Assembly: GCA_029219425.1 (NCBI GenBank)
Contig: JAQXTJ010000003.1
Coordinates: 1-39,625, forward strand
Origin: Bacteroidales bacterium
GTDB taxonomy: Bacteria > Bacteroidota > Bacteroidia > Bacteroidales > Muribaculaceae
Length of the DNA: 39,625 nucleotides
Direction of reading: 5' to 3'
Shown here piece after piece: positions 3,362-39,625 of the stretch. The translations under genes were made by a program, and so were the position numbers. A model generated the notes under the pieces. That model was given only the letters and a program-made list of their open reading frames with translations, did not search any database and was not told the DNA's origin. How positions within the stretch are numbered: position 1 is the first letter of the stretch; every line of letters begins with the position of its first letter.

Positions 3362-3443
3362 AATGCGATTATATCTATAAAAATATTGTATGACAACTTG
3401 TGGGTTGTTGGAAAATCGTGAAATAATCATTTATGGTGTGCTC

Positions 3444-5021: not shown

Positions 5022-5069
5022 TTATTCTCTGTTAGTAGGTTAGTGTTTTTTTATGAATCCTGTGGGGAA

Positions 5070-6041: not shown

Positions 6042-6081
6042 TTTCTCGATTTGTGCAAATTATTGAATTATAGAGAAGTTG

Positions 6082-7515: not shown

Positions 7516-7525
7516 ATTTGTGTAT

Positions 7526-8530
7526 CTACATAATGCGAATACTCTTGTGCTTGTTGCGGTTTTTATCGCCCAAATTGAGCTTGATGTTGTAGCGCAGGAA
7601 CACCTCATGGCTTCCCGAGCTTGCCTTGGCCACCTGGGAGATGGGGTAGTCGTAGCAGTATCCGAGGAAGAAGTTCTTCAGTTCGGCGCCAATCATGAGC
7701 GAAACGGCATCGTTCCATCGGTAGCCCAGTCCGCCCGACAGGAATTTGTTGTAGCGCAGGCGGGCAGTTGCCTCTCCGGTGAATATGTTGCCATCGGTCT
7801 TCAGCAAGAGAGATGGCTGCACTTCAAATAACGTGTTTTTAACCGGAATATTGCCACCTGCCATAAAATAATATATCCGTGAAGTGGCAAATTCATATTG
7901 CTTTTCCTGCTCAGAGTCGTCCTTCATTGTGATGGTGGGTGCGGAGATGTGGTTGGCCGAGAGTGATGCCCAGAAGAGCCGGTGTGTGTAGGCCACGCCG
8001 GCGGCAAAGTCGATGGCGTTTCCATTGATGTCGGTGCGAGGTATTCCGTCGTCGTTGCTCTCGTGGTAATCGTCGTCGTCGGGGATATATGCTTCAGAGC
8101 CGCGGAACGACTGGCTCATTAGGCCAAGCTGCACGCCTATGCTCAGCTCTCCCTTGAGCAGCTTCTTCTTCCAGGCGGCCTGTAGCGCGGCATTGAGGGT
8201 GCTGTAGAGTCCCTCGCTTTGCTGCATTATCACCACGCCTGCTCCCACTCGCTTGCCGAAGAGCTTGAAGGGGCTGTCGGCCATTGCCAGAAATGCCTTT
8301 GGGGCTTTGGGGATTCCCACCCACTGCATACGGCTGGCGGCGGTGATGCGTATGTAGTCGCTGTTGCCCACGAGACCGGGGCTGTAGTAGGTGGGCATAG
8401 CCCAGTATTGCGTGAGCTGTGCGTCGGTCTGTGCATGGGCGTGGATGGAGGCCACGGCAAGGCAAGCCATGGCGGCCGCGGCTCGGGCCACGGCTGCCAG
8501 TGATGCCATATTTCGTAAAAATACACTCAT
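7526..8530 (-). CDS. porP: T9SS outer-membrane protein PorP/SprF family
   Basis: Signal peptide, then QTDAQLTQYWAMPTYYSPGLVGNSDYIRITAASRMQWVGIPKAPK, typical of PorP/SprF; directly upstream of gldK. Confidence 0.9.
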   Translation of the reverse strand: MSVFLRNMASLAAVARAAAAMACLAVASIHAHAQTDAQLTQYWAMPTYYSPGLVGNSDYIRITAASRMQWVGIPKAPKAFLAMADSPFKLFGKRVGAGVVIMQQSEGLYSTLNAALQAAWKKKLLKGELSIGVQLGLMSQSFRGSEAYIPDDDDYHESNDDGIPRTDINGNAIDFAAGVAYTHRLFWASLSANHISAPTITMKDDSEQEKQYEFATSRIYYFMAGGNIPVKNTLFEVQPSLLLKTDGNIFTGEATARLRYNKFLSGGLGYRWNDAVSLMIGAELKNFFLGYCYDYPISQVAKASSGSHEVFLRYNIKLNLGDKNRNKHKSIRIM

Positions 8531-21581: not shown

Positions 21582-24149
21582 ATGTTTAGAAAGGTTATAA
21601 TAGGATTACTGATGACAACGCTTGCTACATCGGCAATGCAGGCCGATGTGGCAAAGCGCCCGGTGCGCGACGGGTGGAAATTCCGCCAGGGACGCTCCGA
21701 AATATGGTATCCTGCAACAGTTCCCGGAACGGTGCACACCGACCTCATAGCCAATGAGATAATCGAGGACCCGTTTTTTCGCCTCAATGAGCGCGGCGTG
21801 CAGTGGGTCGACAAGGAAGACTGGATGTATGAAACCACGCTGGTGGCAACAGCCGCCGAGGTGGGCAGCAGCAACCAGGAGCTGGTGTTTCACGGACTCG
21901 ACACATACGCCGACGTGTATCTCAACGGCAAATCCATTCTCAATGCCAACAACATGCACCGCACCTGGCGCGTGAATGTGAAGGGACTGCTGAAGCAAGG
22001 CGAAAACAAGCTTGAGGTGTATTTCCACTCACCCATAAAGATTGACCTTCCCAAGTGCGACAAATACAGCTATGGCTTCAACACGGGCCCCGACCAGTCG
22101 CAGAACGGAGGAATCTTCGACAAGCTGGTGAGCATTTTTGCCCGCAAGGCAGGCTATCACTATGGCTGGGACTGGGGCCCACGATTGGTGACATCGGGAA
22201 TATGGCGCGATATAGTGCTTGAGACGTGGAGCGACAGCCGCATCGACGATGTGCAGCTCATTCAGAACAAGGTGAGTGAGGCCTCGGCCACACTAAGCAG
22301 CATTGTGGAGATGCGATGTGATGCGGCCGTGAGCAATGCCACGCTCACTGTCACTGCCAACGGCCGAGAGGTGGCGAAGAAGCAGGTGAGCCTCACCAAA
22401 GGCGACAACCGCGTGCAGATGGACTATACTATTCACAACCCACGCTTGTGGTGGCCCAACGGACTTGGAGAGGCCTATCTCTACGACTTTGAAACCACAC
22501 TGAGTATTGGAGGCAAGGTGGCCGACAGCCGCAAGCAGGAAATAGGACTTCGCTCGATAGTGCTTCACAACGACAAGGACCAATATGGCCACAACCTCTA
22601 TTTCGAGGTCAATGGCAAGCCGGTGTTCATGAAGGGCGCCGATATGGTTCCGCTCGATAACTTCCTGCCGCGCATCACCCGCGAGCGATATGAGAAGCAC
22701 GTGCTCGATGCCAAGGCCGTGAACATGAACATGATTCGCGTGTGGGGCGGCGGAGTGTACGAAGACGACTATTTCTATGAGCTTTGCGACCGCAACGGCA
22801 TACTCGTGTGGCAAGACTTCATGTTTGCGTGCTCCATCTATCCGGCTGATGATGAGTTTATTGCAAATATCCGTCAGGAGGCAATCGACAATGTGAAGCG
22901 CTTGCGCAACCACGCGTGCATAGCCCTGTGGTGCGGCAACAACGAGTGTCAGGATGTGATGTACGGCTGGGGCAACCGCAAGAAATACTATGAGGAGCGC
23001 GGAGTGCTCCCGCTGCTTGAGTCGCAATTCAAGAATATGTATTTCAAGTGTCTTCCCGAGGTGGTCGCCGAGTATGGCAGTGGCGTGGCCTACCGCCCGT
23101 CGTCGCCCTTTGCCTTCGAGGACACACCGAGCGATGGCGTGAACGGCGATGCCCACTACTGGGGCGTGTGGCACGGGCGCGACTCGATAGGGCACTACAA
23201 TGTGGAGCGGGCACGCTTTTTCTCGGAATATGGCTTCCAGTCGTTCCCCGAATTTGAGTCGGTGAAGCTCTATGCGCCGCAGAAGCGCGACTGGAACATC
23301 AACAGCGAGGTGATGATGGCACATCAGCGTGCCGGCTCCTACGCCAACAATCTCATCCGCGACTATATGAATGCCGAATATCGCACACCCGACAACTTCG
23401 AGCATTTCCTCTATGTGGGAATGTTGCTCCAGGGCGACGCTATAAAGACGGCAATGGAGGCACACCGCCGCGACATGCCCTACTGCATGGGCACGCTCTA
23501 CTGGCAGCACAACGACTGCTGGCCGGTGGCTTCGTGGGCAGCGCGCGACTACTACGGACGCTGGAAGGCGCAGCAATACTTCGCACGTCAGGCCTACCGC
23601 GACATCTTAGTGTCGCCCACGGTGAAGGACGATGTGGTGAAGGTGAGCCTCGTGAGCGACCGGCGCGCCGATGCAAAGGGTAAGTTTACCATCACGGCAC
23701 TCACGCTCGATGGCAAGAAACTTGCACAAGTCAGCCGCAACGTCACAGCCAAGGCATTCACATCGCAGGTGATTTTCAGCAGTGCGCTGCGCAATATGCT
23801 CAAGGGCTGCAAGCGCGAGGATATGGTGATTGCCGTGCGCTTCGAGACAGCCGGCGCCGAGCCTTACACCAACGTGGGCTACGCCTGCCGGCAGAAGCGG
23901 ATGAACTACACCCACCCCAATTACAGCGTGGATATAGAACCGGCCGAAGGGGGCTACGAGGTGACAGTGGGCAGCGACGTGTTTGCGCGAGGCGTTTTCC
24001 TCTCAATTGAAGGAATTGACAACTTTTTTAGTGACAATTATTTTGACATTTTGCCGGGAGAAAAGCGCACCATACACGTGAGAACGACTATTGACCGTGA
24101 CGAAATGCGCCGGCAGCTCAAAATTTTGTCACTGGGCGACACATTCTGA
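21582..24149 (+). CDS. GH2 beta-mannosidase-like protein
   Basis: WYPATVPGTVHTDLIANEIIEDPFFRLNE, YHYGWDWGPRLVTSGIW, MNMIRVWGGGVYEDDYFYELCDRNGILVWQDFMFACSIYP, WCGNNECQ, ARFFSEYGFQSFP. Confidence 0.92.
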   Translation: MFRKVIIGLLMTTLATSAMQADVAKRPVRDGWKFRQGRSEIWYPATVPGTVHTDLIANEIIEDPFFRLNERGVQWVDKEDWMYETTLVATAAEVGSSNQELVFHGLDTYADVYLNGKSILNANNMHRTWRVNVKGLLKQGENKLEVYFHSPIKIDLPKCDKYSYGFNTGPDQSQNGGIFDKLVSIFARKAGYHYGWDWGPRLVTSGIWRDIVLETWSDSRIDDVQLIQNKVSEASATLSSIVEMRCDAAVSNATLTVTANGREVAKKQVSLTKGDNRVQMDYTIHNPRLWWPNGLGEAYLYDFETTLSIGGKVADSRKQEIGLRSIVLHNDKDQYGHNLYFEVNGKPVFMKGADMVPLDNFLPRITRERYEKHVLDAKAVNMNMIRVWGGGVYEDDYFYELCDRNGILVWQDFMFACSIYPADDEFIANIRQEAIDNVKRLRNHACIALWCGNNECQDVMYGWGNRKKYYEERGVLPLLESQFKNMYFKCLPEVVAEYGSGVAYRPSSPFAFEDTPSDGVNGDAHYWGVWHGRDSIGHYNVERARFFSEYGFQSFPEFESVKLYAPQKRDWNINSEVMMAHQRAGSYANNLIRDYMNAEYRTPDNFEHFLYVGMLLQGDAIKTAMEAHRRDMPYCMGTLYWQHNDCWPVASWAARDYYGRWKAQQYFARQAYRDILVSPTVKDDVVKVSLVSDRRADAKGKFTITALTLDGKKLAQVSRNVTAKAFTSQVIFSSALRNMLKGCKREDMVIAVRFETAGAEPYTNVGYACRQKRMNYTHPNYSVDIEPAEGGYEVTVGSDVFARGVFLSIEGIDNFFSDNYFDILPGEKRTIHVRTTIDRDEMRRQLKILSLGDTF

Positions 24150-24328: not shown

Positions 24329-27300
24329 ATGAAAAGAAGACTTTCAAGTATGTTGGTCCTTATGTTATTTTGCGTGCAGGCAATCTTTGCACAGGCAAAT
24401 ATCACGGGACAAGTTTTAGATGAAAAAACCGGTCCACTCATTGGAGCTACTGTTCTGGTGAAAGGAACTACGGTGGGAGTATCGACTGATGTCAACGGTA
24501 ATTTTACTATCAAGGCGAAAGCCGGACAGACACTCCAAGTTTCATACGTGGGCTACAACTCTCAGGAAGTGGTAGTGCCAAAGAGCGGAAAAGTGGTAAT
24601 CAAACTTAAAGAAGCCAGCACCAGTCTCGACGAGGTGGTTGTTGTGGGTGTGGCAATGAAGAAGAGCGACCTTACAGGCGCTGTCTCCTACGTCGATGCC
24701 GAAGTGCTCGCCGAGAAGCCGGTAACTAACATCAACGACGCTCTCTCGGGCCGCGTGGCCGGTGTGAGCATCGTGAAGAGCACCTCGCCCTCGGAAGACT
24801 CATCAATCAAGATTCGTGGTACGAACACCATCAACTCAGGCTCGTCGCCAATCTACGTAGTCGATGGTCTTGTAATGGGCAACGACTTTGGTTTCTACAA
24901 CTCAATCAACGTGAACGACGTTGAGTCGGTTCAGGTGCTCAAAGACGCATCTGCAACAGCGCTCTACGGTTCGCGTGGTGCCAATGGTGTAATCGTAATC
25001 ACCACCAAGAAGGGAAAGAAGGGCAAAGCTGAGTTCTCTTACGATGGTTGGGTAGGATTCTCAAAGATAGGACACCGCCCCGAGACAATGAACGCCCAGC
25101 AACTCTTCGATATGCGTACTGAGGCTTACGCCAACGGTTACATGTACAACAACCCCGATGCAAACCGTCAGGAGTATATCGATAACACCCTCATGAAGAC
25201 CAACATCGCCTTCCACGAGCAGGAATTTGCCGGCTACAAGAGTGGCAAGAGCTTCGACTGGCTCAAGGAGGTGACACAGACAGGCGTGCAGCACAACCAC
25301 AACTTCAGCTTCTCGAAGGCTACCGATGGCTCACAGGTTTACATCAGCCTTGGTATCAACAACCTCAAGGGTATCGTTCGCGGCACTGAGCAGCAGCGTT
25401 ACACCGGCCGTATCAATGCTTCGACCGACATCACTCCGTGGTTGCAGGTAGGTACAAACACTTCTTACACCTACACTCACGACGACATGACCAGTGGCTC
25501 GGTATATTCGCAGGCCCTTTACAATGGAAACCCGCTTGTGGATTTTGCTCCCTATAAGGACGATGCAACCCGCCACGACGATGACTACCTCACACTCTTC
25601 TGGCGTGTGAAATCGGAGGAGAACAACAACAACTTCAACCCGTTCAACTCCTACGAAGTCAAGACCGACCGCTCGCGCTACCACCTCACATCGTCGAGCT
25701 ACTTGAACATAAACCCGATGAAGGGCTTGAACTTCCGTTCTACATTTGCAATCAACCACGGAGAGCAGAGCTGGAACCAGTTTATCCCGACAGGCATCCA
25801 GGAGTCGTATCGCCACTATTCAGGCGAGGCATTCGCTACACAGCAGCACTTCGGTGAGACACAGTGGCAGTGGGATAACACCATCAGCTACGATAACATC
25901 TTCAACGATGTTCACCGCGTGAACGCTTTCGTTGGTACTTCTGCATCGCGCAAGACTTCAAACTACCTCAAGGGTGAGGGCCGCAAGTTTGCTTCCGACG
26001 ACCTCGGTTATGATGGCCTTTTCGGAGCAGCTGACGCTGAAAACCGCCACATCTACAACGGACGCTCGGCTGAGTCGCTCATGTCGTATGTAGCACGTGC
26101 CAACTACACCTACGCATCGCGTTACTACTTGACCGTAACCGGTCGCTGGGACGGCTCGTCGAAGTTTGCTGCCGGACACCGTTGGGGCTTCTTCCCATCA
26201 TTCTCTTTGGCATGGGATATCACTAATGAGCAGTTCTTCCCGAAATCACAGTATATCAACCAATTGAAGCTCCGTGGAGGCTATGGAGTAGTAGGTAACC
26301 AGGCCATCGGCGACTTCATGTATGCTACACTCTACACACCGAGCGTGAGCAACGGTGAGGCATCGTACGGAACAGATGGTCGTCGCGGAACTCCCGATAT
26401 CTCTTGGGAGAAACAGAAGCAGACCAACATCGGAATCGACATGAGCTTCTTCCAGCGTCGCTTGAGCGCATCTCTCGATGTATTCTTCATCAACAACTCA
26501 AACCTTCTCATGAGCCACAACTTGCCTACAACTTCGGGTTACACCTACACAGTTGAGAACATCGGTGAGCTTAGCAACAAGGGATTTGAGCTTACACTCT
26601 CGGCAGTGCCCGTTCAGACAAAGGATTTCACTTGGAACATCAGCGCCAACCTCGGCCTCGACCGCAATGAGGTGAAGAAACTCTACGGCAATGTGGAGCG
26701 CATTCTTAGCGGTGGCCGCACAGGCAATATCTTCATCGGTGAATCGCTCAACAACCTTTACTGCCTCCAGGCAGGCGGCATCGCCAATGAGAACAACCGC
26801 ACTGAGTGGGAAAGCCTCGACTTCAATGGCCGCACTATCGGTCTTGGCGACCTCTTTGCCCGCGATATTTCAGGACCGGACGATAAGCCCGATGGCGTAG
26901 TTGACCAGTACGACCGCGCTATCTACAGCGATATGGATCCGAAGTTCTATGGTGGTTTCTCAACCGACTTCTCTTGGAAGGGCTTGACTCTTAACGCCAT
27001 CTTCAACTACTCTGTAGGCGGACACGCACTCAGCGGATACTATGAGAGCCTTATCAGCTCATTCGGCCAGAGCAACGCATCGACCGACCTTCTCGACCGC
27101 TGGACTCCCGAGAACACTGCTGCCTACTTCCCACGCCGCATGGCAAATGTGAGCGGATACAGCGCATACGGAGCAGGCGAAACCGACCGCTATGTGCAGA
27201 GCACATCGTTCCTGCGTCTGTCTAACCTCACACTTTCTTACAACTTGCCTAAGAGCCTCACCCAGAAGTGGCACATGAACAACCTGCGTGTATATTTCAC

Positions 27301-27421
27301 TGCAAGCAACGTGTTCACTCTCACCGGCTACAAGGGATTTGATCCCGAGTATGGCGACGGAAGCGGATACTACCCGACAGAGCGCTCTTACACTATTGGA
27401 CTTTCGTTAAGCATTTTCTAA
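24329..27421 (+). CDS. susC: SusC/RagA family TonB-linked outer-membrane protein
   Basis: Signal peptide; carboxypeptidase-D-like plug extension (ITGQVLDEKTGPLIGATVLVKGTTVGVSTDVNGNF); plug IRGTNTINSGSSPIYVVDGL, ALYGSRGANGVIVITTKKG; SusC barrel C-terminus. Confidence 0.97.
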   Translation: MKRRLSSMLVLMLFCVQAIFAQANITGQVLDEKTGPLIGATVLVKGTTVGVSTDVNGNFTIKAKAGQTLQVSYVGYNSQEVVVPKSGKVVIKLKEASTSLDEVVVVGVAMKKSDLTGAVSYVDAEVLAEKPVTNINDALSGRVAGVSIVKSTSPSEDSSIKIRGTNTINSGSSPIYVVDGLVMGNDFGFYNSINVNDVESVQVLKDASATALYGSRGANGVIVITTKKGKKGKAEFSYDGWVGFSKIGHRPETMNAQQLFDMRTEAYANGYMYNNPDANRQEYIDNTLMKTNIAFHEQEFAGYKSGKSFDWLKEVTQTGVQHNHNFSFSKATDGSQVYISLGINNLKGIVRGTEQQRYTGRINASTDITPWLQVGTNTSYTYTHDDMTSGSVYSQALYNGNPLVDFAPYKDDATRHDDDYLTLFWRVKSEENNNNFNPFNSYEVKTDRSRYHLTSSSYLNINPMKGLNFRSTFAINHGEQSWNQFIPTGIQESYRHYSGEAFATQQHFGETQWQWDNTISYDNIFNDVHRVNAFVGTSASRKTSNYLKGEGRKFASDDLGYDGLFGAADAENRHIYNGRSAESLMSYVARANYTYASRYYLTVTGRWDGSSKFAAGHRWGFFPSFSLAWDITNEQFFPKSQYINQLKLRGGYGVVGNQAIGDFMYATLYTPSVSNGEASYGTDGRRGTPDISWEKQKQTNIGIDMSFFQRRLSASLDVFFINNSNLLMSHNLPTTSGYTYTVENIGELSNKGFELTLSAVPVQTKDFTWNISANLGLDRNEVKKLYGNVERILSGGRTGNIFIGESLNNLYCLQAGGIANENNRTEWESLDFNGRTIGLGDLFARDISGPDDKPDGVVDQYDRAIYSDMDPKFYGGFSTDFSWKGLTLNAIFNYSVGGHALSGYYESLISSFGQSNASTDLLDRWTPENTAAYFPRRMANVSGYSAYGAGETDRYVQSTSFLRLSNLTLSYNLPKSLTQKWHMNNLRVYFTASNVFTLTGYKGFDPEYGDGSGYYPTERSYTIGLSLSIF

Positions 27422-27448: not shown

Positions 27449-29026
27449 ATGAAACTGAAAAATAAGATATTTACACTGGGAATTCTTGCCCTGTCATCGC
27501 TTGCATTCACATCGTGCAGCGATTTCCTCGACGAAGATCCCAAGACGGCAATCACCGAGGACAAGATGTACTCCTCGCCTGAATATGCTGAATCTGTTCT
27601 TCAAAGCTGCTATAAGGGCTGGCGCGGAATGTTTAAGGACCGCTACATCTGGGAGTGTATGGTGGGAACCGACGAGATTCAGTCGGGTGCTTACCAGGCA
27701 CTAAAGGAAGACGGAATGCGCCGCGGCTCGCTCGACCGCTACGATGCTCTTCTCACTTCGGAACTTTACTATATCTCCGACCAGTGGGGTAACCGCTGGA
27801 CAAAGGTGGGTGAGGCTGCCAAGATTATCCGTGCATTGAAGCCTCTCGTTGAGGAAGATGCTCAGGCTGCTAAGGTTTATGGTGAAGCAAGCTTTATTCG
27901 TGCCGGACTTACTATGGAGCTTACATTTATCTTCGGACGTATTCCTATCCTCGACCTCGACCGTATCACCGAACTCGGTTATGGCCGTCAGCCCGAGAAG
28001 GACATTTGGGCGTTTATCATCAACGACTTTGAGAATGCAGTGAAATACTGCCCCGAGAAGAACGACCCGGCCCGTGCTACAACCTACGCTGCATCGATGC
28101 TTCTTGGCTACGCCTATATGTCGGCACCCGAGGCAACCGGACTCCGCGACTTCTCAAAGGCTAAGGCAGCTCTTGAGAAGGTGGTGAAAGGCCCGTTCCA
28201 GCTTGTTTCTTACTACGACCTGTGGGACTACAGCACGCCCAACACAGCCGAGTCGATCTTTGAGTGGCAATTCAGCAACGCATGGCCTGACAACAACGCT
28301 ATCCAGTTCCAGATTGGCTCACGTGCAGTGCAGGCAATGGGCGGTGACGGCTGTTTCATGAGTGGTTACGACCACGCAGTACCTTCGGCTTGGGCATATA
28401 GCGACAAGGCTGATGGTGGTATCTGGGAAGACGGTGACGTGCGCAAGGAAGAGTCGATCCGCTACGATTTCACTTGGTTTGGAAAAGTGCCCGACCTTAA
28501 CAGCGTAGCATGGGAAGACCTTGGCGAAGACCACGATGAGCTTCTCCCGCACATCAAGAAGTATGAGGACTTCCGCACCGACATTCACTCGGGCATGGGA
28601 CTCAACAACGAGTGGTATTCGGGCAAGAACATTCCGTTCCTCCGCCTTGGCAATGCAATCCTCCTCTATGCAGAGTGCCTGAACGAGCTTGGCCAGACAA
28701 GCGATGCAATGGAGCAGGTGAACAAGATTCGTGAGCGTGCATGGGACTTCGACCTTCCGGCTGACAAGCGTTGGACAGGCATGTCGAAAGAGCAGTTCCG
28801 CACTGAGCTTATGACAGAGCGCGTGCGTGAGCTGTTCGGAGAGCGTTGGCGTCGTTTCGACCTTGTGCGCACCGGCAAGTTCCTTGAGTATGTAAAGGAG
28901 CGCAACAAGTGGGCAAAGCGTTCGGGAACAATCCAGGAGTGGAACAAGGTTTGGCCAATTCCGCAGGCTGAAATCGACCAGAACGACGACATTTCACCCG
29001 AGGATCAGAATGAGGGTTACAGATAA
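27449..29026 (+). CDS. susD: SusD/RagB family nutrient-binding outer-membrane lipoprotein
   Basis: Lipobox AFTSC; SDFLDEDPKTAITEDKMYSSPEYAE; AEAYFIR-like GEASFIRAGL; C-terminal ELFGERWRRFDLVRTGKF, WPIPQAEIDQN. Confidence 0.97.
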   Translation: MKLKNKIFTLGILALSSLAFTSCSDFLDEDPKTAITEDKMYSSPEYAESVLQSCYKGWRGMFKDRYIWECMVGTDEIQSGAYQALKEDGMRRGSLDRYDALLTSELYYISDQWGNRWTKVGEAAKIIRALKPLVEEDAQAAKVYGEASFIRAGLTMELTFIFGRIPILDLDRITELGYGRQPEKDIWAFIINDFENAVKYCPEKNDPARATTYAASMLLGYAYMSAPEATGLRDFSKAKAALEKVVKGPFQLVSYYDLWDYSTPNTAESIFEWQFSNAWPDNNAIQFQIGSRAVQAMGGDGCFMSGYDHAVPSAWAYSDKADGGIWEDGDVRKEESIRYDFTWFGKVPDLNSVAWEDLGEDHDELLPHIKKYEDFRTDIHSGMGLNNEWYSGKNIPFLRLGNAILLYAECLNELGQTSDAMEQVNKIRERAWDFDLPADKRWTGMSKEQFRTELMTERVRELFGERWRRFDLVRTGKFLEYVKERNKWAKRSGTIQEWNKVWPIPQAEIDQNDDISPEDQNEGYR

Positions 29027-29054
29027 TAGAAGCTAATAAACTCCATTAACACTT

Positions 29055-29106
29055 GATGGTGGAGAGCGACCTCTCCACAGTGATGCCACTCTCCACCATC
29101 TTTTCC
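29055..29106 (+). terminator. Hairpin with T-tract after susD (terminator/attenuator candidate)
   Basis: GATGGTGGAGAG (29055-29066) pairs perfectly with CTCTCCACCATC (29089-29100), followed by TTTTCC. Confidence 0.7.
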
Positions 29107-29148
29107 AAATATTAATCAACAATAAGAATAAACAACTTTGAATTTATT

Positions 29149-30948
29149 ATGAAAAAGAAATCTTTACTTAGTGTGCTGCTTGCAGCAACAACCACGGCAG
29201 CCTTTGCAGCTCCACAGGTGCCTTCATACAATGAAATCGACCTCACGTCGCTTGTATCTCCGGCATTGTTCCATGGCAACTTGGGTGTCGTTGACTTCAA
29301 TAGCGATGATATTCTCGACGTTTTTGTGAAAGGTCGTGACCTCAATAAAAGTTGGATTCCAAAATTCGTATATCTCACAGGCGACGGCTACTCGTTCACA
29401 AACTGCACTGTTGTTCCCGAACTTGATGGCACTGGTTGGGAGCGTGTGGTTTTGCCAATCGACTACAATAGCGATGGCATCGTGGATGTTATCTATGGTG
29501 CATCTTATGGCTCCAAGCTCTTGAAAAATGATGGAAAGGGGAATTTTACCGAAGTAGAAGGTTTCGCTCTTGAAGGCGAGATTAGCATTGATGGTAATGA
29601 CCAGCAAAAGTGGTATGATGGTGTGCTGCTCACAGCCGACTTCAACCTCGATGGTTATCCCGATGTGGTAACATTCAATGGCAATCCTCGTGAGGACCAG
29701 GGAACACCAACTATCTACCTCAACAATCAAGGCAATGGCACTTTCACTCGCATTGCTGAGAGTGGTCTTAATCCTCAGCGTGGCGGTACGATGGCTATTG
29801 GTGACATCAATGGCGACGGCAAGCCCGACTTGGTTGTATGTGGCTGGATTGACAATGACCGCATTCGCGCATACTATGGCAATGGCGACGGCACATTCAC
29901 GGCTGCCGAGACTGCAATGTTCGATGACACCAACCGTGGAACTGAGAAGGGACACATTATCCTCGTGGATATTGATGCCGATGGCGACCTCGACCTTTTC
30001 GTAACAGGAACATCTTGCCCGCAAGGCTGGGCTCGCGTAGCCGATATTTATCTCAATGACGGAACAGGAAAATTCACTTATACTGACTATGGACTTCCCG
30101 GAGTGCAGGCATCGGCTGCCGACTGGTGCGACCTCAATGCCGATGGAAACATGGATATTGTTTATGTGGGCTATGGAAGCAATGGAGGCGTGACTAATGT
30201 GGCAATCAATCAAGGCAATGGCACTTTTGTGGTGAAGAATAACCTTATCGGCGCTCACCGCGATGGCTGCTCGGTGTTTGCGGCCGATGTCAATGGTAAT
30301 GGTATGATGGATATTCTCGTGATGGGTTATCAAGATGGCTCCGACCACCACTTCCAGCTGATGAACGGACTTGCTTCTCGTGGCGTTAATTCGGCTCCTA
30401 CTGCTCCCACCAACCTCAAGGCATCGTCGGAGGGTGGAAAGGTGACATTCACCTGGGAAGCCGGAAGCGATGCCCAGACTCCCACCGCAGCTCTTCGCTA
30501 CAATGTGTATGTGAAGATGAACGACGGCCGCATCATCACCGTGGTTCCCGCAAATCCCGCATCGGGTGTGCTTCGCTCGGTTAATGGCGTCAGCGGCGCT
30601 CTCGTTGGATGCAGCTATACACTCAATGTCAACGCTGCCGACGTGGCAGAGTGGGGTGTTCAGACAATCGATGGCTGCAAGCTCGGCAGTGCATTTGCAA
30701 CATCAACTGAAATCACAAGTGGCGCAGAGGCCGTGAAGGCTGAGAAGGTGGCTGTGAAGTGCAACGGCCGCACAATCACGGTCAATGCCGATGCACAGGT
30801 GAGCGTAATCGACTTTGCGGGTCGCGTGGTTGCCAATGCAAGCGTTAAAGCCGGCGAGGCAATGGGCACCAACCTCGCAGCAGGTGTATATGTGGTAGAG
30901 GCAACTACCGCACAGGGTAAGAAGATTGAGAAATTTATTATCAAGTAA
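29149..30948 (+). CDS. FG-GAP/VCBS-repeat beta-propeller protein with Fn3-like domain and T9SS C-terminal sorting domain
   Basis: Type I signal peptide (AFA-AP); seven DxNxDGxxD-type motifs (DFNSDDILD, DYNSDGIVD, DFNLDGYPD, DINGDGKPD, DIDADGDLD, DLNADGNMD, DVNGNGMMD); Fn3-like APTNLKASSEGGKVTFTWEAG; C-terminus VSVIDFAGRVVANASVK...LAAGVYVVEATTAQGKKIEKFIIK. Confidence 0.88.
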   Translation: MKKKSLLSVLLAATTTAAFAAPQVPSYNEIDLTSLVSPALFHGNLGVVDFNSDDILDVFVKGRDLNKSWIPKFVYLTGDGYSFTNCTVVPELDGTGWERVVLPIDYNSDGIVDVIYGASYGSKLLKNDGKGNFTEVEGFALEGEISIDGNDQQKWYDGVLLTADFNLDGYPDVVTFNGNPREDQGTPTIYLNNQGNGTFTRIAESGLNPQRGGTMAIGDINGDGKPDLVVCGWIDNDRIRAYYGNGDGTFTAAETAMFDDTNRGTEKGHIILVDIDADGDLDLFVTGTSCPQGWARVADIYLNDGTGKFTYTDYGLPGVQASAADWCDLNADGNMDIVYVGYGSNGGVTNVAINQGNGTFVVKNNLIGAHRDGCSVFAADVNGNGMMDILVMGYQDGSDHHFQLMNGLASRGVNSAPTAPTNLKASSEGGKVTFTWEAGSDAQTPTAALRYNVYVKMNDGRIITVVPANPASGVLRSVNGVSGALVGCSYTLNVNAADVAEWGVQTIDGCKLGSAFATSTEITSGAEAVKAEKVAVKCNGRTITVNADAQVSVIDFAGRVVANASVKAGEAMGTNLAAGVYVVEATTAQGKKIEKFIIK

Positions 30949-31101: not shown

Positions 31102-33504
31102 ATGAGAATCACAACGAAGATATTATCGGTTCTTGCTCTTGCAAGTAGCAGTCTGCTTGCAATGGGCGGAAACCTCTATATCACCGACGGTGCATGGAAA
31201 ATCACTGCCGGAACATCGAACACACTGACCTATACGGTCGATGGTAACACCATCATCAAGAATGCCTACGTCACGGCGCTTGATGAGAGTTACAACACAA
31301 TGTCGTCGAAGAACTATCCCACATGCAACCTCACATCGAAGAGCATCAGCGACGGTTTTGGTACGGGAACACAGTACACCTACCGCTTTTCGGGCAAGAG
31401 TGGACAGAATGACCTTGAGCAGAACATCTACATCTATACGAACCAACCTTATATTCTCGTGGAGGCATCGGTGATAGCCTCATCGGGTACTACATCGAGT
31501 ACAAAAATATGCCCGATAGTGTCGGAAACCACTACAACCCTCTCGGTGCTTGGCAGCAGCAACAACCGCGTGTATAACATGCCATTCTGCAACGACAACT
31601 GGGCTACTTTCAACACAGTTACATGGGAAACCGGACAACAGGTGATTTCGTGTGAGGCAACAACCCTCTTCAATACCGACAGCCGCAAGGCGATAGTCCT
31701 TGGCTCGGTTGACCACACCACCTGGAAATCGGCAGTGTATGTAACGCCCAATGGCAGCAACCGCATGCGCAAGCTCACCGCCGAGGCAGGCTACATAGGC
31801 GAGCGCACTTGGGACGTTGTGAAAGACAAGGCTTCGAGCGAGCGCCACGGAGCAGTGAAGGGCGCGAAAGTAAGCTCACCGCGCTTTATGCTGGGCGTGT
31901 TCGACGACTGGCGCACGGGAATGGAGACATTTGGTGATGCCAATACCGTGATTTGCCCCAAATATGAGTGGACCAAAGATGAGTCGCTCTTTGGCTGGCA
32001 GTCGTGGGGAGGCATGGAATTTGGACTTAATTACACCTCGGCAATGAGTGTGCTCGACTTCTTCGAGCGCGAGCTGAAGCCGGTGGGATTCTTCAATAAG
32101 CAGGGCCGGTGCCACCTGGTGCTCGACTCAGGCTGGAGTGCACTCAACGATGACCAACTTCGCCGTTATGCCAGTCGCTGCAAGGAACTTGGCTTCGTGC
32201 CCGGTATCTACACCACACCATGGTCGTACTGGGGAAGCGAGCAGCAGGTGCTCAACAACGATGAGTGGGAAGGCGGACGTCTTGGCGAGATGGTGCTGAA
32301 GGCAGGCGGCAAGTATCGCCACATTGTAGGTTGGTCGCTCGACCCGACACACCCGGCAGTGAAGGAGTGGAACCGCCGCACAATACAGAAATTCCGCAAT
32401 CTCGGCTTTGAATTTGTGAAGATTGACTTCCTCAACAATGGCTCGCAGGAGGCCGATTCCTGGTATGACCCGAATATCACAACAGGAATGCAGGCTTATA
32501 ACTACGGACTCGATTACATTAAGGAGTTCTGTGGCGATGATATGATGATTGACTTCTCGATTGCGCCCGTATTCCCCAACAAGGCACATGTGCGCCGCAT
32601 AGGTTGCGATGCCTGGGGTGAGCTGAAATTCTCGATGTACACCCTCAATTGCATTCAAGGCTCTTGGTGGCTCGACCGCATGTATGCTTTCAACGACCCC
32701 GACCACATGTGTCTGTCGAAAGTGAAATTCTCGGGCAAGGGTTCGCCCGATGAGCAGGAGGCACGCATTCGCTACACTTGTGGCTTGATTACGGGCATGA
32801 CCTTGCTTGGCGGCACCTACGCCTACGAGGGAGAAGTGAAGGGCAACTATGGCCATGTGGTGGGCTATGACGAGGAGCGTGCCCGCGCGGTGAAATTTGC
32901 TACGAACAAAGGGCTCACCGAAATGGGTCGGATTGGCAAGACGTTCCGCCCCGTTGAGGCGACATTCAAGTATAATTCATCGCTCTGGAGCACCAACGAC
33001 GTTGCCGTAGATAAAGAGTTCGTTATGGATACTCCCGATGCGTTCTACTATGTGGTATTCAACTACGAGCAGAATGGAGCGCTCAACTTTGCGCCCAATT
33101 TTGAGCGCCTTGGCGTAAGTGCCTCGGAGTTTGTGCGCGTAACCGAGCTTTGGGAGAGCAAGACATATACCAACCCTGCATCGATGCAGATAAGCGTGCC
33201 CAATAAGGACGTGCGCATCTATCGCTTTGAGCGTGCCGGCTATGGCAAGGCAGAATCAACTTTGATCGACCCTGCGGGGTCGGTCAAAGTGAGTTTCCGC
33301 AATGGCGAGCTGCATGTGTGCGCCGCCGAGGCAGTGAGCAGTGTGAGCGTCTATGGAATCGACGGCTCGGCACTTGCCACACTCACACCCGGCAGCTATG
33401 CCTGTGAGCTCGCAGTGCCACTGGGCAGACACATGGGCGTTGTCATAGCCAAGGTGACACTTGAATCGGGGCGTACGGCAGTGCTCAAGGTTGCGGCACG
33501 CTGA
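31102..33504 (+). CDS. Clan GH-D alpha-galactosidase-like (GH27/GH36-type) secreted enzyme with T9SS-like C-terminal tail
   Basis: LVLDSGWSALNDDQLRRYASRCKELGFVPGIYTTPW, FEFVKIDFLNNG (candidate nucleophile Asp), RRIGCDAWGELK, YAFNDPDHM; tail VSSVSVYGIDGSALATLTPG...VVIAKVTLESGRTAVLKVAAR. Start set at 31102. Confidence 0.8.
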   Translation: MRITTKILSVLALASSSLLAMGGNLYITDGAWKITAGTSNTLTYTVDGNTIIKNAYVTALDESYNTMSSKNYPTCNLTSKSISDGFGTGTQYTYRFSGKSGQNDLEQNIYIYTNQPYILVEASVIASSGTTSSTKICPIVSETTTTLSVLGSSNNRVYNMPFCNDNWATFNTVTWETGQQVISCEATTLFNTDSRKAIVLGSVDHTTWKSAVYVTPNGSNRMRKLTAEAGYIGERTWDVVKDKASSERHGAVKGAKVSSPRFMLGVFDDWRTGMETFGDANTVICPKYEWTKDESLFGWQSWGGMEFGLNYTSAMSVLDFFERELKPVGFFNKQGRCHLVLDSGWSALNDDQLRRYASRCKELGFVPGIYTTPWSYWGSEQQVLNNDEWEGGRLGEMVLKAGGKYRHIVGWSLDPTHPAVKEWNRRTIQKFRNLGFEFVKIDFLNNGSQEADSWYDPNITTGMQAYNYGLDYIKEFCGDDMMIDFSIAPVFPNKAHVRRIGCDAWGELKFSMYTLNCIQGSWWLDRMYAFNDPDHMCLSKVKFSGKGSPDEQEARIRYTCGLITGMTLLGGTYAYEGEVKGNYGHVVGYDEERARAVKFATNKGLTEMGRIGKTFRPVEATFKYNSSLWSTNDVAVDKEFVMDTPDAFYYVVFNYEQNGALNFAPNFERLGVSASEFVRVTELWESKTYTNPASMQISVPNKDVRIYRFERAGYGKAESTLIDPAGSVKVSFRNGELHVCAAEAVSSVSVYGIDGSALATLTPGSYACELAVPLGRHMGVVIAKVTLESGRTAVLKVAAR

Positions 33505-33571: not shown

Positions 33572-36500
33572 ATGAATCTCAATTATCATAGCGCATTATT
33601 TGCACAATTGCGCCTCATTGTGCTGCTACTTGCCGCTTTGGCGGCAACCGAAGAGGCAAATGCGCTCGACAACTATTCATTCAAGCACATCGACAGCAGC
33701 ACCGGACTCTCATCGAGCAACGTGAAATGCATTGTCGAGGACAGCTATGGTTTTATGTGGCTTGGCACCAAGAACGGACTCAACCGCTACGACGGTGTGA
33801 ACATGCGGCTCCTCGACTGCTACGATGAGGAGCTGAAGCAGGGAAACAACAACATAGGCGCACTCTATGAGGACGAGAACAAGATGCTCTGGGTGGGAAC
33901 CGACCGAGGCATCTATATCTACAATCCACGCACCGACCGTTTCACAAAGGCCGTGCAGAAAGATGCCAAGACAGGCACCGTGGCCGACAACTGGGTGCAG
34001 TCGATAGTGGGCGACCAGAGGGGCAATGTGTGGGCGCTTGTGCCCGACCAGGGTGTGTTCCACTACCACGACGGTGACAAAGTGGACTACTACAACATCA
34101 CAAAAGACGGAAACTTCAAGAAAATATTCCCATCTAATATATTCGTCAGCAGCAAGAAGAATGTGTGGATATGCACCACAGGCTCAGGCCTCTACCGCCT
34201 GAATGTGGAAACCCGGGATTTTGAGCAGATAGCACAGGTTGACGATACTTCGCTGCTTGGCATAAATTTTATCTCGATTGCCGAGGACATCACCGGCTCG
34301 CTGATTCTGGCATCGAATGAGGGGCGGATTTTCCGCTTCAACACACGTGCGAACAACATATCGGAGATTCCATTCACCTGCGCGGGCAAGGTGTATCTTC
34401 GCTGTTTGGCCTGCTTCGACGGAGAGATTTGGATAGGCACGCAGCACGGACTCTACATCATCGACACGATAAGGCACACTGAGCGTTACCTCATAAACGA
34501 CCCACTCAATGAGTTCAGCCTGTCGGACGACATAGTTTACTACATCTACAAGAGCAAGCAGAATGATGCCTGGATAGGAACCATGTTTGGTGGCGTGGAC
34601 TACATGCCACGCCACAAATTCACATTTGAGTACTTCGGGCTTGGAGCCGGACTGAGCAGCCGGCGAGTGCGCGGACTGGCGCAGGCAGCCGATGGGCGCA
34701 TCTGGATAGGCACTGAGGAGAAGGGGCTGAATGTGCTGAATCCGGCAACAGGGACAGTCACATTTGCCGAGCAACGACCCATACCCAGCAACAATACCAT
34801 ACTGATGCTAACTTCGAGCGGAGGTGATATTGTGGCGTCGTTCAGCCGATTGGGTCTGGTGAGAGTGGAATCGGCGAAGAACTACACGAAACTATTCGAC
34901 AACAACAGCGGCTCCAACGGAGTGTACTCTTACCTGAAGGACAGCAGCGGCACCGAATGGGTGGGACTTGGCTATGCCCTCTACCGCCGCAAGGCGGGAG
35001 CGGCCGATTTTGAGCATATAACGGCAACAGGATATGACTGGATATTCACCATTGCCGAATCGACCAACGGAGAGGTGTGGCTTGGCACTATGGGAAACGG
35101 AGTGTGGCGCTACACACCCCATAACGGACTTTTCAGACAGTACACCTGCGATGGAGAGAATCCCAGCGGACTCCGCTCTAACTCAATCAGCGCATTGTAC
35201 ACCGACAGCAAGGGACGGCTGTGGCTCTCGACCGACCGTGGCGGAATAAGCCGCTACAACCGCGACACAGATGACTTTACCACATTCGGACAGGAAGAGG
35301 GGCTTCCCGACGATGTGGCATACAGCATGCTTGAGGACGAGAATGGGAATCTGTGGTTCGGCACCAACAAGGGGCTTGTGAAATTCAATCCCAACACGGC
35401 AGCGGTGAAGGTGTTCACCATGAAGGACGGTCTGCCGGGCAACCAGTTCAACTACGGTCAGGCAGTGAAGACTGGCAGCGGAATGTTCTACTTCGGCTGC
35501 ATCGACGGCGTTGTGGCCTTCAATCCGCAGAACGAGGAGCTCCAGACTTCGCTCGAAGGCATATACTTCACGCGGATGGACGTGCTCAACGATGAGGTGT
35601 ATCCCGGTGAGGAGGGTTCGCCGCTTGAGCAGAACATACTGTTCACCGACCAAATCACGCTCCCCTACGACCTTGCCACCTTCTCGCTCGATGTGGCATC
35701 GCCCAACTTCGGCACCACAGGAGGCGACATCTACAGCTACAAGATAGAGCCACTTGGCGACAAGTGGATAACGATGCACAACAACCGCATTTCGTTCACC
35801 AATCTTGCCACCGGCGACTACAAGCTCACGGTGCGCGTGGAGAACAACGGCAAGAAAGTGGAGCGCGAGATGCGAATCACGATACTGCCACCCTGGTGGC
35901 TCTCGGGATGGGCATTCTTTTGCTATTTCCTCATGGCTGCGCTTGCGGTGGTATGCTGGTTCTGCTGGTATCGCAACCACAAGGAGCAGCAGCTCAGGGA
36001 GAGGCAGAAGCTCTTTGCCATCAACAAGGAGAAGGAGCTGTATGAGAGCAAGGTGAACTTCTTCACCGAGGTTGCCCATGAGATACGCACGCCGATAGCT
36101 CTTATCGACGCGCCTCTTGAGGCAATAGAGGAGATAGGCGTGAGCGATGGCAAAGTGGCGCACTACCTGAATGTGATGCGCCAGAACACGCGCCGCCTGC
36201 TCAACCTCACCGGGCAACTGCTCGACTTCCAGAAGATTGACTCGGGGCGCATGGTGCTCACGAGCGAGAATGTGGATATTGCGCTGCTCGTGACCGAGAC
36301 CCTCGACCGCTTTGAGCCTGCAATCATGGTGAAGCACAAGCAACTGCTGCGGCATGTGACCGATGAGCAGATAATCGTATCGACCGACAAGGAGGCTGTG
36401 ACCAAGATACTGAGCAACCTGCTCAACAATGCGCTGAAATATGCCTCGAGGACAATAGAAGTGACGCTCACGGCCGACGACAAGACTTTTGTGCTGCGCG

Positions 36501-37594
36501 TGATGAGCGACGGAAAGAAAATAACCGAAGCCGACCGCAGGCGCATATTTGAGCCATTCTACCAGATTGACAAGACCATGAGTGGCGAGAATGGCGTGGG
36601 AATTGGGCTGCCGCTGTCGCTGTCGCTTGCCAAGATGCTTGGCGGTGTGCTCTATCTTGAGGAGAACACAGGCGATGAGAATGTGTTCTCACTCTCCCTA
36701 CCCATCAACAAGACCGACATCAGGCAGAACAACAAGAATGTGGTAGTCACCTCCGACTATCTCATTGAGGAGGGCTCGAACCAGTCGAAAGAGAATGCTG
36801 CCGGATACACGGTGCTCATAGTGGAGGACAACGACAATATGCGTGAGTTCCTCGCCGACCAGGTGAACATGTCGTTCTCGGTTGAGACCGCAAGTAACGG
36901 CAAGGAGGCATTTGAGAAGCTGAAAAAGAGCCATATCGACCTGATAGTGACCGATGTGATGATGCCCGAGATGAATGGCTATGAGCTGTGCAAGGCTGTG
37001 AAGGCCGACATCGACCTGTCGCACATTCCGGTGGTGTTCATCACAGCGAAAAACGACCTCGACAGCAAGATAAAGAGCCTGCAACTTGGCGCAGAGGCCT
37101 ACATCGAGAAGCCTTTCTCGGTGAAATACTTCCGCCAGCTCATCCGCTCACTGCTCGACAACCGCCGCCGCGAGCGCGAGGCATTCTCGAAGAAGCCTTT
37201 CTTCAACGTGGATAACATGCACGTGAACAAGGCCGATGAGGAGTTCATCAACAAGGTGGTGAAAATCATTGAGGACAACATAGGCGAGGACAACTTCAGC
37301 GTGGAGTCGATGGCCGACATCTTCTGCATGAGCCATTCGAGCCTGCTTCGCAAGATTAAGACGGTGTTTAATCTCTCGCCGGTGGAGCTGATAAGGCTAA
37401 TCAAGCTGAAGAAGGCTGCCGAGCTAATTCAGGAGGGCAAATACCGCATTGGCGACATCTGCTACATGGTGGGCATATCGTCGCAGAGCTACTTCAGCAA
37501 ACTCTTCTTCAAGCAATTTGGCATCACGCCCAAGGACTTTGAGAAGCAGTGCCAGAAGAAGCTGCAAGGCACGGTGCCCGAACAGCTAAAATAG
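33572..37594 (+). CDS. Hybrid two-component system sensor/regulator (HTCS): Reg_prop propeller, Y_Y_Y, TM, HisKA, HATPase, REC, AraC HTH
   Basis: Reg_prop repeats (FMWLGTKNGLNRYDG, LWVGTDRGIYIYNPRT...); TM near WWLSGWAFFCYFLMAALAVVCWF; H-box FFTEVAHEIRTPIALI; VGIGLPLSLSLAKMLGG; REC LIVTDVMMPEMNGYELC; AraC HTH IGDICYMVGISSQSYFSKLFFKQFGITPKDF. Confidence 0.97.
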   Translation: MNLNYHSALFAQLRLIVLLLAALAATEEANALDNYSFKHIDSSTGLSSSNVKCIVEDSYGFMWLGTKNGLNRYDGVNMRLLDCYDEELKQGNNNIGALYEDENKMLWVGTDRGIYIYNPRTDRFTKAVQKDAKTGTVADNWVQSIVGDQRGNVWALVPDQGVFHYHDGDKVDYYNITKDGNFKKIFPSNIFVSSKKNVWICTTGSGLYRLNVETRDFEQIAQVDDTSLLGINFISIAEDITGSLILASNEGRIFRFNTRANNISEIPFTCAGKVYLRCLACFDGEIWIGTQHGLYIIDTIRHTERYLINDPLNEFSLSDDIVYYIYKSKQNDAWIGTMFGGVDYMPRHKFTFEYFGLGAGLSSRRVRGLAQAADGRIWIGTEEKGLNVLNPATGTVTFAEQRPIPSNNTILMLTSSGGDIVASFSRLGLVRVESAKNYTKLFDNNSGSNGVYSYLKDSSGTEWVGLGYALYRRKAGAADFEHITATGYDWIFTIAESTNGEVWLGTMGNGVWRYTPHNGLFRQYTCDGENPSGLRSNSISALYTDSKGRLWLSTDRGGISRYNRDTDDFTTFGQEEGLPDDVAYSMLEDENGNLWFGTNKGLVKFNPNTAAVKVFTMKDGLPGNQFNYGQAVKTGSGMFYFGCIDGVVAFNPQNEELQTSLEGIYFTRMDVLNDEVYPGEEGSPLEQNILFTDQITLPYDLATFSLDVASPNFGTTGGDIYSYKIEPLGDKWITMHNNRISFTNLATGDYKLTVRVENNGKKVEREMRITILPPWWLSGWAFFCYFLMAALAVVCWFCWYRNHKEQQLRERQKLFAINKEKELYESKVNFFTEVAHEIRTPIALIDAPLEAIEEIGVSDGKVAHYLNVMRQNTRRLLNLTGQLLDFQKIDSGRMVLTSENVDIALLVTETLDRFEPAIMVKHKQLLRHVTDEQIIVSTDKEAVTKILSNLLNNALKYASRTIEVTLTADDKTFVLRVMSDGKKITEADRRRIFEPFYQIDKTMSGENGVGIGLPLSLSLAKMLGGVLYLEENTGDENVFSLSLPINKTDIRQNNKNVVVTSDYLIEEGSNQSKENAAGYTVLIVEDNDNMREFLADQVNMSFSVETASNGKEAFEKLKKSHIDLIVTDVMMPEMNGYELCKAVKADIDLSHIPVVFITAKNDLDSKIKSLQLGAEAYIEKPFSVKYFRQLIRSLLDNRRREREAFSKKPFFNVDNMHVNKADEEFINKVVKIIEDNIGEDNFSVESMADIFCMSHSSLLRKIKTVFNLSPVELIRLIKLKKAAELIQEGKYRIGDICYMVGISSQSYFSKLFFKQFGITPKDFEKQCQKKLQGTVPEQLK

Positions 37595-37743: not shown

Positions 37744-39625
37744 ATGAAAAGAGATAGCATGAGAAGAATGAGCCTTGTGCCTGCATTGCTTGCCTTGTGG
37801 CTCGTGGCAGGAGCGAAGGTGCAGTTGCCGCAATTTGTGACCGACAGCATGGTGGTGCAACAGCAGAGCAACTGGAGAATTGAGGGCAAGGCCTCGGGCA
37901 AGGTGAAAGTGACAACATCGTGGAATGGAAAGACCATCGTGGCTACCACCGATGCCGACGGACACTTTGCAGTGACACTTGCCACGCCGGCGGCCGGCGG
38001 CCCACACCGCATCACCTTCGACGACGGCGAGCGGCTCACGCTGCGCGACATCTACTCGGGCGAGGTGTGGCTGTGCTCCGGGCAATCGAACATGGAAATG
38101 CCCGTGGGCGGCTGGGGCAAGGTGATGGACTATGAAAAGGAGATTGCCAATGCGAATCATGACAATATCCGCTTCCTGCAAGTGCAGAAGCAGATAGGCT
38201 ACCGCACTGCCGACGACACCAATATAAATATGGGAGGCTGGCGCACGTGCTCTCCCGCCACCGTGGAGAATTTCTCCTCGATAGCCTACTTCTATGCCCG
38301 CGAGATGGCGAAGAAGCTGGGCGTGCATGTGGGTGTGATTGACTGCACATGGGGCGGCACACCGGCCGAGGCATGGACAAGCTATGAAGGAGTGAAATCG
38401 GTGCCCGGATTTGAGAAAGAGACGCAGTTGCTCAGTGACGGCAACTTCGATGCCGCCAATATGAAGCAACTCTACGAGAAGGAGATTGAGGAGTGGATGA
38501 GGCTGGCATCGTCGGGGAGCAAGACATTTGATGCCGCGCGTTACGATGCTTCGCTGCCCAAAATGGCACTGCCCTGTGAGTGGGAGAAAGCGGCGCTGCC
38601 CGACTTCGATGGCATAGTGTGGTTCCAGTATTCGATTGACATTCCTGCCGATTGGGCGGGGAAAGCGATTGAGCTGCACCTCGGGATGATTGACGATGAG
38701 GATGTGACATACTTCAATGGAAAGAAGATTGCCGAGGGTTCGGGCTACAACGTGAAGCGCAGCTACACAATTCCGGCTGAGCTTGTGAAAGCCGGACGCT
38801 CGGTGATCTCGGTGCGCGTGAGCGACTTTGGCGGCGGTGGCGGAATATGGGGCGATGCAGCCGACATGGTGGCCGTGCAGGGCGAAAAGAGCATCTCGCT
38901 CGCCGGCAACTGGCACTACAGCGTAGCCGCCGACTTTGGCAAGCTGCCACGGCGACCCGTTTCGGTGGAAAGCTCGAGTTTCCCTTGTGTGCTCTACAAT
39001 GCAATGCTCTATCCGCTTCACACCATGCCGGTGAAGGGAGTGCTGTGGTATCAGGGTTGTGCCAATGTGGGACGCGACGCACAATACTCGGTGCTCTTCA
39101 AGCGACTTATCAACGACTGGCGCACGCTGTGGGGCAATGAACAGCTGCCATTCTATTTTGTGCAGCTTGCCGGCTACTTGCAGCCGAAGCTCATTCAGCC
39201 CGATTCGCAATGGGCTGCACTTCGCCAGGCACAGGCCGACGCCCTGGAGCTTGACAATACAGCCATGGCCGTGGCTATCGACATAGGCAATCCCGACGAC
39301 ATTCACCCCAAGAACAAGCAGGAGGTGGCACGAAGGCTCTCGCTCATAGCACTGAGGCATACCTATGGCCGTGGCGAGGTGATTTGCGAAGCACCGAAGC
39401 CTGTGTCGCTCGGTGCGGCAGGCAATGATGCGCTTGTGAAATTTGACAATGAAGTGAAAGCCGATGGCGCAGCTCCACAGGGCTTCATCGCCCTTGTGGG
39501 AGGCCAGTGGGTGCGACCCGAGGTAAAAATTGTGGATCACAATGTGGTGCGCCTCACCGCCGGTGGCAAAATTGAGCAGGTGAAATACAACTGGGCCGAC
39601 TATCCCGACGGCAATTTGCGTGGTA
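37744..39625 (+). CDS. Sialate O-acetylesterase-like (SASA/SGNH family), 3'-truncated by window end
   Basis: My translation in the 37744 frame stays open to 39625: signal peptide; SGEVWLCSGQSNMEMPVGGW (SGNH block I), GVIDCTWGGTPAEAWTS, VKGVLWYQGCANVGRDAQYSVLFKRLINDWR, AIDIGNPDDIHPKNKQEVARRLSLIAL. Missing from ORF track because it lacks a stop codon in the window. Confidence 0.92.
   Translation, partial: MKRDSMRRMSLVPALLALWLVAGAKVQLPQFVTDSMVVQQQSNWRIEGKASGKVKVTTSWNGKTIVATTDADGHFAVTLATPAAGGPHRITFDDGERLTLRDIYSGEVWLCSGQSNMEMPVGGWGKVMDYEKEIANANHDNIRFLQVQKQIGYRTADDTNINMGGWRTCSPATVENFSSIAYFYAREMAKKLGVHVGVIDCTWGGTPAEAWTSYEGVKSVPGFEKETQLLSDGNFDAANMKQLYEKEIEEWMRLASSGSKTFDAARYDASLPKMALPCEWEKAALPDFDGIVWFQYSIDIPADWAGKAIELHLGMIDDEDVTYFNGKKIAEGSGYNVKRSYTIPAELVKAGRSVISVRVSDFGGGGGIWGDAADMVAVQGEKSISLAGNWHYSVAADFGKLPRRPVSVESSSFPCVLYNAMLYPLHTMPVKGVLWYQGCANVGRDAQYSVLFKRLINDWRTLWGNEQLPFYFVQLAGYLQPKLIQPDSQWAALRQAQADALELDNTAMAVAIDIGNPDDIHPKNKQEVARRLSLIALRHTYGRGEVICEAPKPVSLGAAGNDALVKFDNEVKADGAAPQGFIALVGGQWVRPEVKIVDHNVVRLTAGGKIEQVKYNWADYPDGNLRG

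Follow-up and report, generated by a model that had tools for sequence, protein, structure and literature searches.

The gene directly 3′ of susD in the window, by which we mean the whole stretch of 39,625 nucleotides that was analyzed, from a gut-type Bacteroidales bacterium, encodes a VCBS/FG-GAP propeller protein that we think rather probably acts as a surface glycan-binding protein: it would be Ca-stabilised, delivered by the T9SS, placed in the SusE/F slot, and would cooperate with the neighboring glycosidase GHx and with SusC/SusD. The architecture of the protein, its C-terminal tail, the T9SS gene set, the conserved neighborhood and a series of natural fusions all emerge from computation, and glycan binding by the propeller is suggested by this context, by the glycosidase fusions and by clade-specific aromatic residues. 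The locus is ordered GH95, GH2, SusC, SusD, propeller, GHx, hybrid two-component regulator and SASA esterase; its features, and those of the export genes, are as follows.

2207..8530, minus strand: GldN, GldM, GldL, GldK and PorP, the T9SS core (profile matches)
19215..21557, plus strand: GH95 (PF22124, 474 bits)
21582..24149, plus strand: GH2, beta-mannosidase-like (profile match)
24329..27421, plus strand: SusC (TIGR04056, 873.6 bits)
27449..29026, plus strand: SusD lipoprotein (PF07980, 99 bits)
29055..29100, plus strand: perfect 12-bp stem-loop followed by TTTT (z = -4.0), inside the gap 29027-29148
29149..30948, plus strand: 599-aa protein with VCBS/FG-GAP propeller, Fn3-like part and T9SS type A tail (PF13517, TIGR04183, AlphaFold2, Foldseek)
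29149..29208, plus strand: predicted signal peptide of SPI type, residues ~1-20 (sequence reading; no Cys before residue 86)
29293..30312, plus strand: seven DxNxDG Ca-type loops, residues 49-388 (pattern scan and shuffles)
30370..30723, plus strand: Fn3-like beta-sandwich, approximately residues 408-525 (fold matches; EWGVQTID motif)
30775..30945, plus strand: T9SS type A C-terminal sorting domain, residues 543-599 (TIGR04183; gingipain matches)
31102..33504, plus strand: GHx, GH36-like alpha-galactosidase fold (alignment to solved GH36, motifs)
33572..37594, plus strand: hybrid two-component system regulator (profile match)
37744..39624, plus strand: SASA-type carbohydrate esterase, running off the window (profile match)

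The propeller gene is an intact open reading frame with an ATG start that adjoins susD in the order susC-susD-propeller. The N-terminus of its product, MKKKSLLSVLLAATTTAAFA/A, reads as a signal-peptidase-I-like signal of the Sec type, and an outer-membrane lipoprotein signal is absent, the earliest cysteine being residue 86. The stop-to-stop frame is 610 aa long, with only 11 open codons 5′ of the ATG; this limit, together with the position of the first cysteine, means that no upstream start can supply a lipobox. The first-pass annotation had claimed a type I signal peptide without a lipobox, and exactly seven Ca-binding motifs; both claims hold. A scan with the pattern D-x-[ND]-x-[DN]-[GDN]-x-x-D finds matches at residues 49, 105, 164, 219, 274, 328 and 380 and none elsewhere in the protein, whereas 1000 shuffles of the same sequence average 0.025 matches and never yield more than 1. 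The suspected FG-GAP/VCBS character is confirmed by PF13517 (FG-GAP_3; 139.7 bits in five stretches, above the gathering score) and by PF01839 (56.8 bits). The SusE family PF14292 reaches 14.7 bits in this protein, under its cutoff of 25.2, and no enzyme family of Pfam or NCBIfam is above its cutoff there.

An AlphaFold2 model (mean pLDDT 81.7, pTM 0.79) has the propeller fold that had been anticipated; it probably has seven blades, judging by the loop count, the pattern of strands and the seven-bladed proteins among its fold matches. Foldseek searches with this model place CRTAC1 first (9etn), followed by PVL-family lectins, galactose oxidase and integrins; other AA5 oxidases are also among the matches, BtuG is absent from the best 50, and a search of viral folds yields generic propeller matches only. 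A profile built from 11 relatives of the propeller protein likewise matches CRTAC1, integrin alpha and PVL lectin. The Fn3-like domain that had been proposed beyond the propeller has partial support: Pfam fn3 has no match in the window protein at E≤5, and PF00041 is matched by one of nine relatives (E 3e-4). The C-terminal half modeled alone is less certain than the full model (pLDDT 69.8, pTM 0.49), and this lower-confidence model matches tandem Fn3 (FNIII) structures; the EWGVQTID motif in the Fn3-like part is invariant across 11 relatives.

The C-terminal sorting domain that had been suspected is recognized by TIGR04183 across residues 543-599 at 28.9 bits (cutoff 23); PF18962, with 22.4 bits, stays under its cutoff of 27. 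Through the tail, the profile of the 11 relatives matches solved gingipain C-terminal domains, and a profile restricted to the C-terminal region matches these domains along with a single chain of 75 residues named Endonuclease I. The T9SS core had been placed about 20 kb from the propeller gene, and GldN-GldM-GldL-GldK-PorP are indeed there, at 2207-8530. Elsewhere in the genome, a draft of 86% completeness that comprises 203 contigs, the components sought under the names porU, porV and sov were also found: SprA on contig C56, two PorU paralogues on C144 (L072) and C152 (L073) that score 954 and 721 bits against the NF033707 cutoff of 420, PorV (504 bits) on C152 beside one PorU, and in addition PorQ (362 bits) on C131. 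This genome holds 31 TIGR04183 matches at E≤0.001, 23 of which are over the cutoff. SprA occurs in 45/45 tested genomes that bear a relative of the propeller protein and in 14/15 others; since nearly the whole order has the T9SS, the presence of machinery alone says little and its co-occurrence with cargo is uninformative. We regard T9SS export of the propeller protein as a prediction that is well supported in silico. Weighing against T9SS delivery are relatives whose tails are not clearly of this type. In three of them (L004, L079, L085) TIGR04183 falls just below the cutoff, at 21.9-22.6 bits, and four orthologues in the same slot (L080 2412-4142, L082 8508-10382, L111 7852-9780 and L112 7599-9674) have short or changed tails of type NGLYIRRQGTKVEKV that the T9SS models we ran do not recognize. 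The genomes of these four have SprA, and their short tails are possibly a variant of the T9SS tail.

What normally follows susD was surveyed in 80 susD neighborhoods, taken from 24 genomes within the family and chosen from the higher-scoring SusD matches. Among the 64 same-strand genes that lie ≤400 bp from susD, 47 encode lipoproteins, three have T9SS-like tails, 14 have neither and none is a propeller, proportions that are approximate given this choice of matches and our custom lipobox rule; the expectation that the SusE/F slot usually encodes a lipoprotein is thereby substantiated. T9SS-tailed proteins of 320-345 aa lie directly 3′ of susD in other genomes of the family (L209, L223, L224). 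In the genome under study, which has seven SusD genes, a 577-aa T9SS-tailed protein on contig C200 (L099 3660-5393) also adjoins susD; it lacks FG-GAP repeats, so propellers are not the only T9SS cargo to occupy the slot. The uniqueness implied by the first-pass annotation does not survive: T9SS-tailed proteins other than propellers occupy the slot (3/64, and C200), and the propeller arrangement recurs in several families. On contig C160 of the same genome we also observed a second susC-susD pair that is followed by a GH43-similar lipoprotein and then by a VCBS-T9SS protein (L098 8919-10892 and 11038-12174; TIGR04183 32.1 bits for the VCBS-T9SS protein), an arrangement that is repeated in G048.

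Relatives of the propeller protein are present in 29 of 198 family genomes at E≤1e-10 and, at E≤1e-25, in 21 genomes of an order-wide sample of 393, the genome under study being included in both counts. Several families of Bacteroidales share the arrangement susC-susD-propeller-GHx, in most cases with tails of T9SS type. The propeller lies directly after susD in 11 genomes, counting that of the window: the others are G085 (the same as L001), G181, G110, Prevotella illustrans (L004), G167, G175, G006 and G117, plus G218 (L139) and G460 (L145) from other families. In six more (L085, L086, L088, L089, L110 and L002) it is located directly 5′ of susC, the arrangement seen in genus g24 and in L002. 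In a maximum-likelihood tree the window propeller belongs to a supported clade of 15 (95/95) that consists of 14 susCD-linked proteins and a Dysgonomonas fusion (L003 7971-12671), in which a single 1566-aa protein comprises propeller, Fn3-like part, GHx, Ig and T9SS tail. A second group lies between regulator and GH2 genes, without susCD (L005-L007, L108, L114, L115, L140, L147); it also has fused forms, ~1420-1445 aa in length, that join GH2-type enzymes to the VCBS-Fn3 module (L009 4817-9100, L084 13047-17336, L091 3204-7541, L109 4650-8903). Linkage to susCD requires at least three changes on supported branches, and was therefore gained or lost more than once. Conservation, clade and fusions together back the role in the PUL that had been ascribed to the gene. 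Close to one of the propeller clusters that lack susCD, the protein at L006 14812-16596 has a C-terminus that resembles a type I dockerin (PF00404, 36 bits).

The susCD clade retains nine residues, W69, Y156, W233, K267, W294, D325, R371, G373 and Y394, that have been substituted in the HTCS-GH2 clade. Aromatic and charged side chains specific to one clade are the pattern expected for a ligand face, and we put these nine forward as candidates for one. Compared with its closest relative (L001), the propeller protein is 69% identical, against 82% for GHx, 92% for SusC and 90% for SusD; its dN is 0.209, against 0.044 for SusC and 0.060 for SusD. The corresponding dN/dS values are 0.139 for the propeller and 0.073 for SusC; dS of the propeller is near saturation and we claim no positive selection. 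Its faster evolution than that of its neighbors would be consistent with surface exposure.

The stem-loop between susD and the propeller gene has counterparts, in the same place but of differing sequence, in most susD-propeller gaps (z≤-3 in 7/10), but seldom (4/47) in the gaps between susD and a lipoprotein gene, which are far shorter (median 24 nt). Expression downstream of susCD may be tuned by the stem-loop. As an intrinsic terminator the hairpin was rejected: it is missing from the consensus scan because its loop exceeds 8 nt. At the far end of the window there is an HsdR-like fragment near the contig start (55-2016), where TIGR00348 matches in its C-terminal half only and below cutoff. 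A plasmid origin was discarded after no match was found in a plasmid collection.

The putative partner glycosidase GHx aligns to the GH36 alpha-galactosidase 1zy9 (E 2.5e-10) and keeps the KIDF and RIGxD motifs, so that both similarity to solved GH36 and the catalytic Asp motifs are present; PF17801 is under its cutoff in this protein. TIGR04183 does not recognize the tail of the window's GHx, and is above cutoff in GHx relatives from L004, L082, L111 and L145. GH95, GH2 and the esterase have a signal peptide and no recognized T9SS tail. For the actual export, anchoring and substrate of the propeller system, we infer the following sequence of events. Sec would move the propeller protein to the periplasm, where the signal peptide would be cleaved; SprA/PorV, energised by GldL/M, would carry it over the outer membrane; and PorU, aided by PorV and PorQ, would cut off the tail and anchor the protein on the surface, a step proposed from established T9SS knowledge and from the presence of these genes. 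There, the Ca-stabilised VCBS propeller may offer its ligand face, with the Fn3-like sandwich as a stalk, and propeller and GH36-like GHx, the latter T9SS-tagged in some relatives and fused to the propeller in Dysgonomonas, would pass oligosaccharide to SusC/SusD; GH95, GH2 and the esterase would then complete its breakdown in the periplasm. A broader proposal, which we offer tentatively, is of a recurrent T9SS-type PUL surface complex, in which propeller and surface glycosidase are both T9SS cargo and replace the lipoprotein SGBP and GH; the Dysgonomonas protein would be both components fused in one polypeptide.

The assignment as a glycan binder is itself open to challenge: the GW sugar-pocket motif of PVL/tachylectin precedes only one of the seven loops, and VCBS propellers have many non-sugar roles. 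The protein might instead be a T9SS-delivered, BtuG-like subunit that caps or docks onto SusC/SusD and does not bind glycan. Seven-bladed BtuG does cap a TonB-dependent transporter (PMC10404256), and the propeller gene sits beside susC-susD in many genomes; SusC, however, is already capped by SusD, BtuG is a lipoprotein that does not appear in the best 50 fold matches, and related proteins reside in PUL-like clusters without susCD or are fused to GH2, and we consider such a cap unlikely. Matches to integrin alpha and CRTAC1, by profile and by fold, and the rapid evolution of the protein would also suit an integrin-like adhesin that recognizes protein or matrix of a host or a plant and lies next to the PUL by chance or for co-regulation. 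Recurrence of the susCD/GHx order across families, the glycosidase fusions and the coherence of the clade argue otherwise, and leave an adhesin slightly less likely still.

That the propeller is an enzyme, a lyase or oxidase working on glycan at the surface, draws on VCBS relatives that include RGL11 lyases and the AUDH dehydratase (PMC8023676) and on the AA5 oxidases among the Foldseek matches. It is an improbable reading, given that no Pfam or NCBIfam enzyme family exceeds its cutoff and that natural fusions (L003, L009) join the propeller to enzymes that already have a catalytic domain. Most improbable of all is a periplasmic protein with a vestigial tail: PF18962 is under its cutoff and some orthologues have unrecognized short tails, but TIGR04183 is above its own, the gingipain C-terminal domain profile matches, and all T9SS parts that were sought were found.

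Glycan binders linked to SusC/D are described, like surface glycosidases, as lipoproteins of the cell surface, and the usual topics of T9SS research are proteases, gliding and free polysaccharases. If a SusE/F-slot clade carries T9SS tails, then the T9SS would also supply outer-membrane uptake complexes: in some gene sets for sugar uptake, the surface binder seems to travel by a non-lipoprotein route, and annotation pipelines that seek lipoproteins would miss such binders. Our proposal also gives the widespread, uncharacterized VCBS-Fn3-T9SS proteins a testable candidate function. A rumen lineage without archetypical PULs exports its CAZymes through the T9SS (PMC5831590), and S24-7 genomes have the T9SS and many hypothetical TIGR04183 proteins (PMC4936053); in the open-licence papers searched we found no report of this architecture, and none that combines FG-GAP/VCBS with PULs and SusD, the T9SS or sorting domains.

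Among known systems, SusE, SusF and SGBP-B (e.g., the levan SGBP BT1761) resemble the window protein in their slot after susC-susD, in pairing an Ig/Fn3-like part with a putative binding domain, and in low conservation. Lipidated SGBPs and GHs form a utilisome, in which Trp residues of a lipidated SGBP with Ig-like domains cradle levan (PMC7618045); the window protein, in contrast, has a T9SS tail in place of a lipid anchor and a VCBS propeller in place of a CBM-like or globular binding domain, with no above-threshold match to the SusE Pfam family. ChiA of F. johnsoniae is a PUL enzyme secreted by the T9SS (PMC5127042), and is alike in being PUL-encoded and T9SS-exported, export of the propeller protein being predicted from its sequence; ChiA is a secreted multimodular chitinase, whereas our protein fills a binder slot and has no recognized catalytic domain. 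PVL-type lectins (Psathyrella velutina lectin), part of the VCBS superfamily described in PMC8023676, share the VCBS propeller, the Ca loops and both profile and fold matches, whereas the window protein is bacterial and has an Fn3-like domain and a T9SS tail; membership among these lectins was rejected, as the GW motif (DA′ loops) defined in that work precedes one of seven loops. BtuG is a seven-bladed propeller, as the window protein probably is, and is a lipoprotein that works on a TonB-dependent transporter (PMC10404256), but it binds corrinoids, and the window protein has no lipobox. Finally, the CRTAC1 and integrin alpha propellers provide the best fold match (9etn) and share the FG-GAP loops, yet these are animal proteins that have no SusCD or T9SS context.
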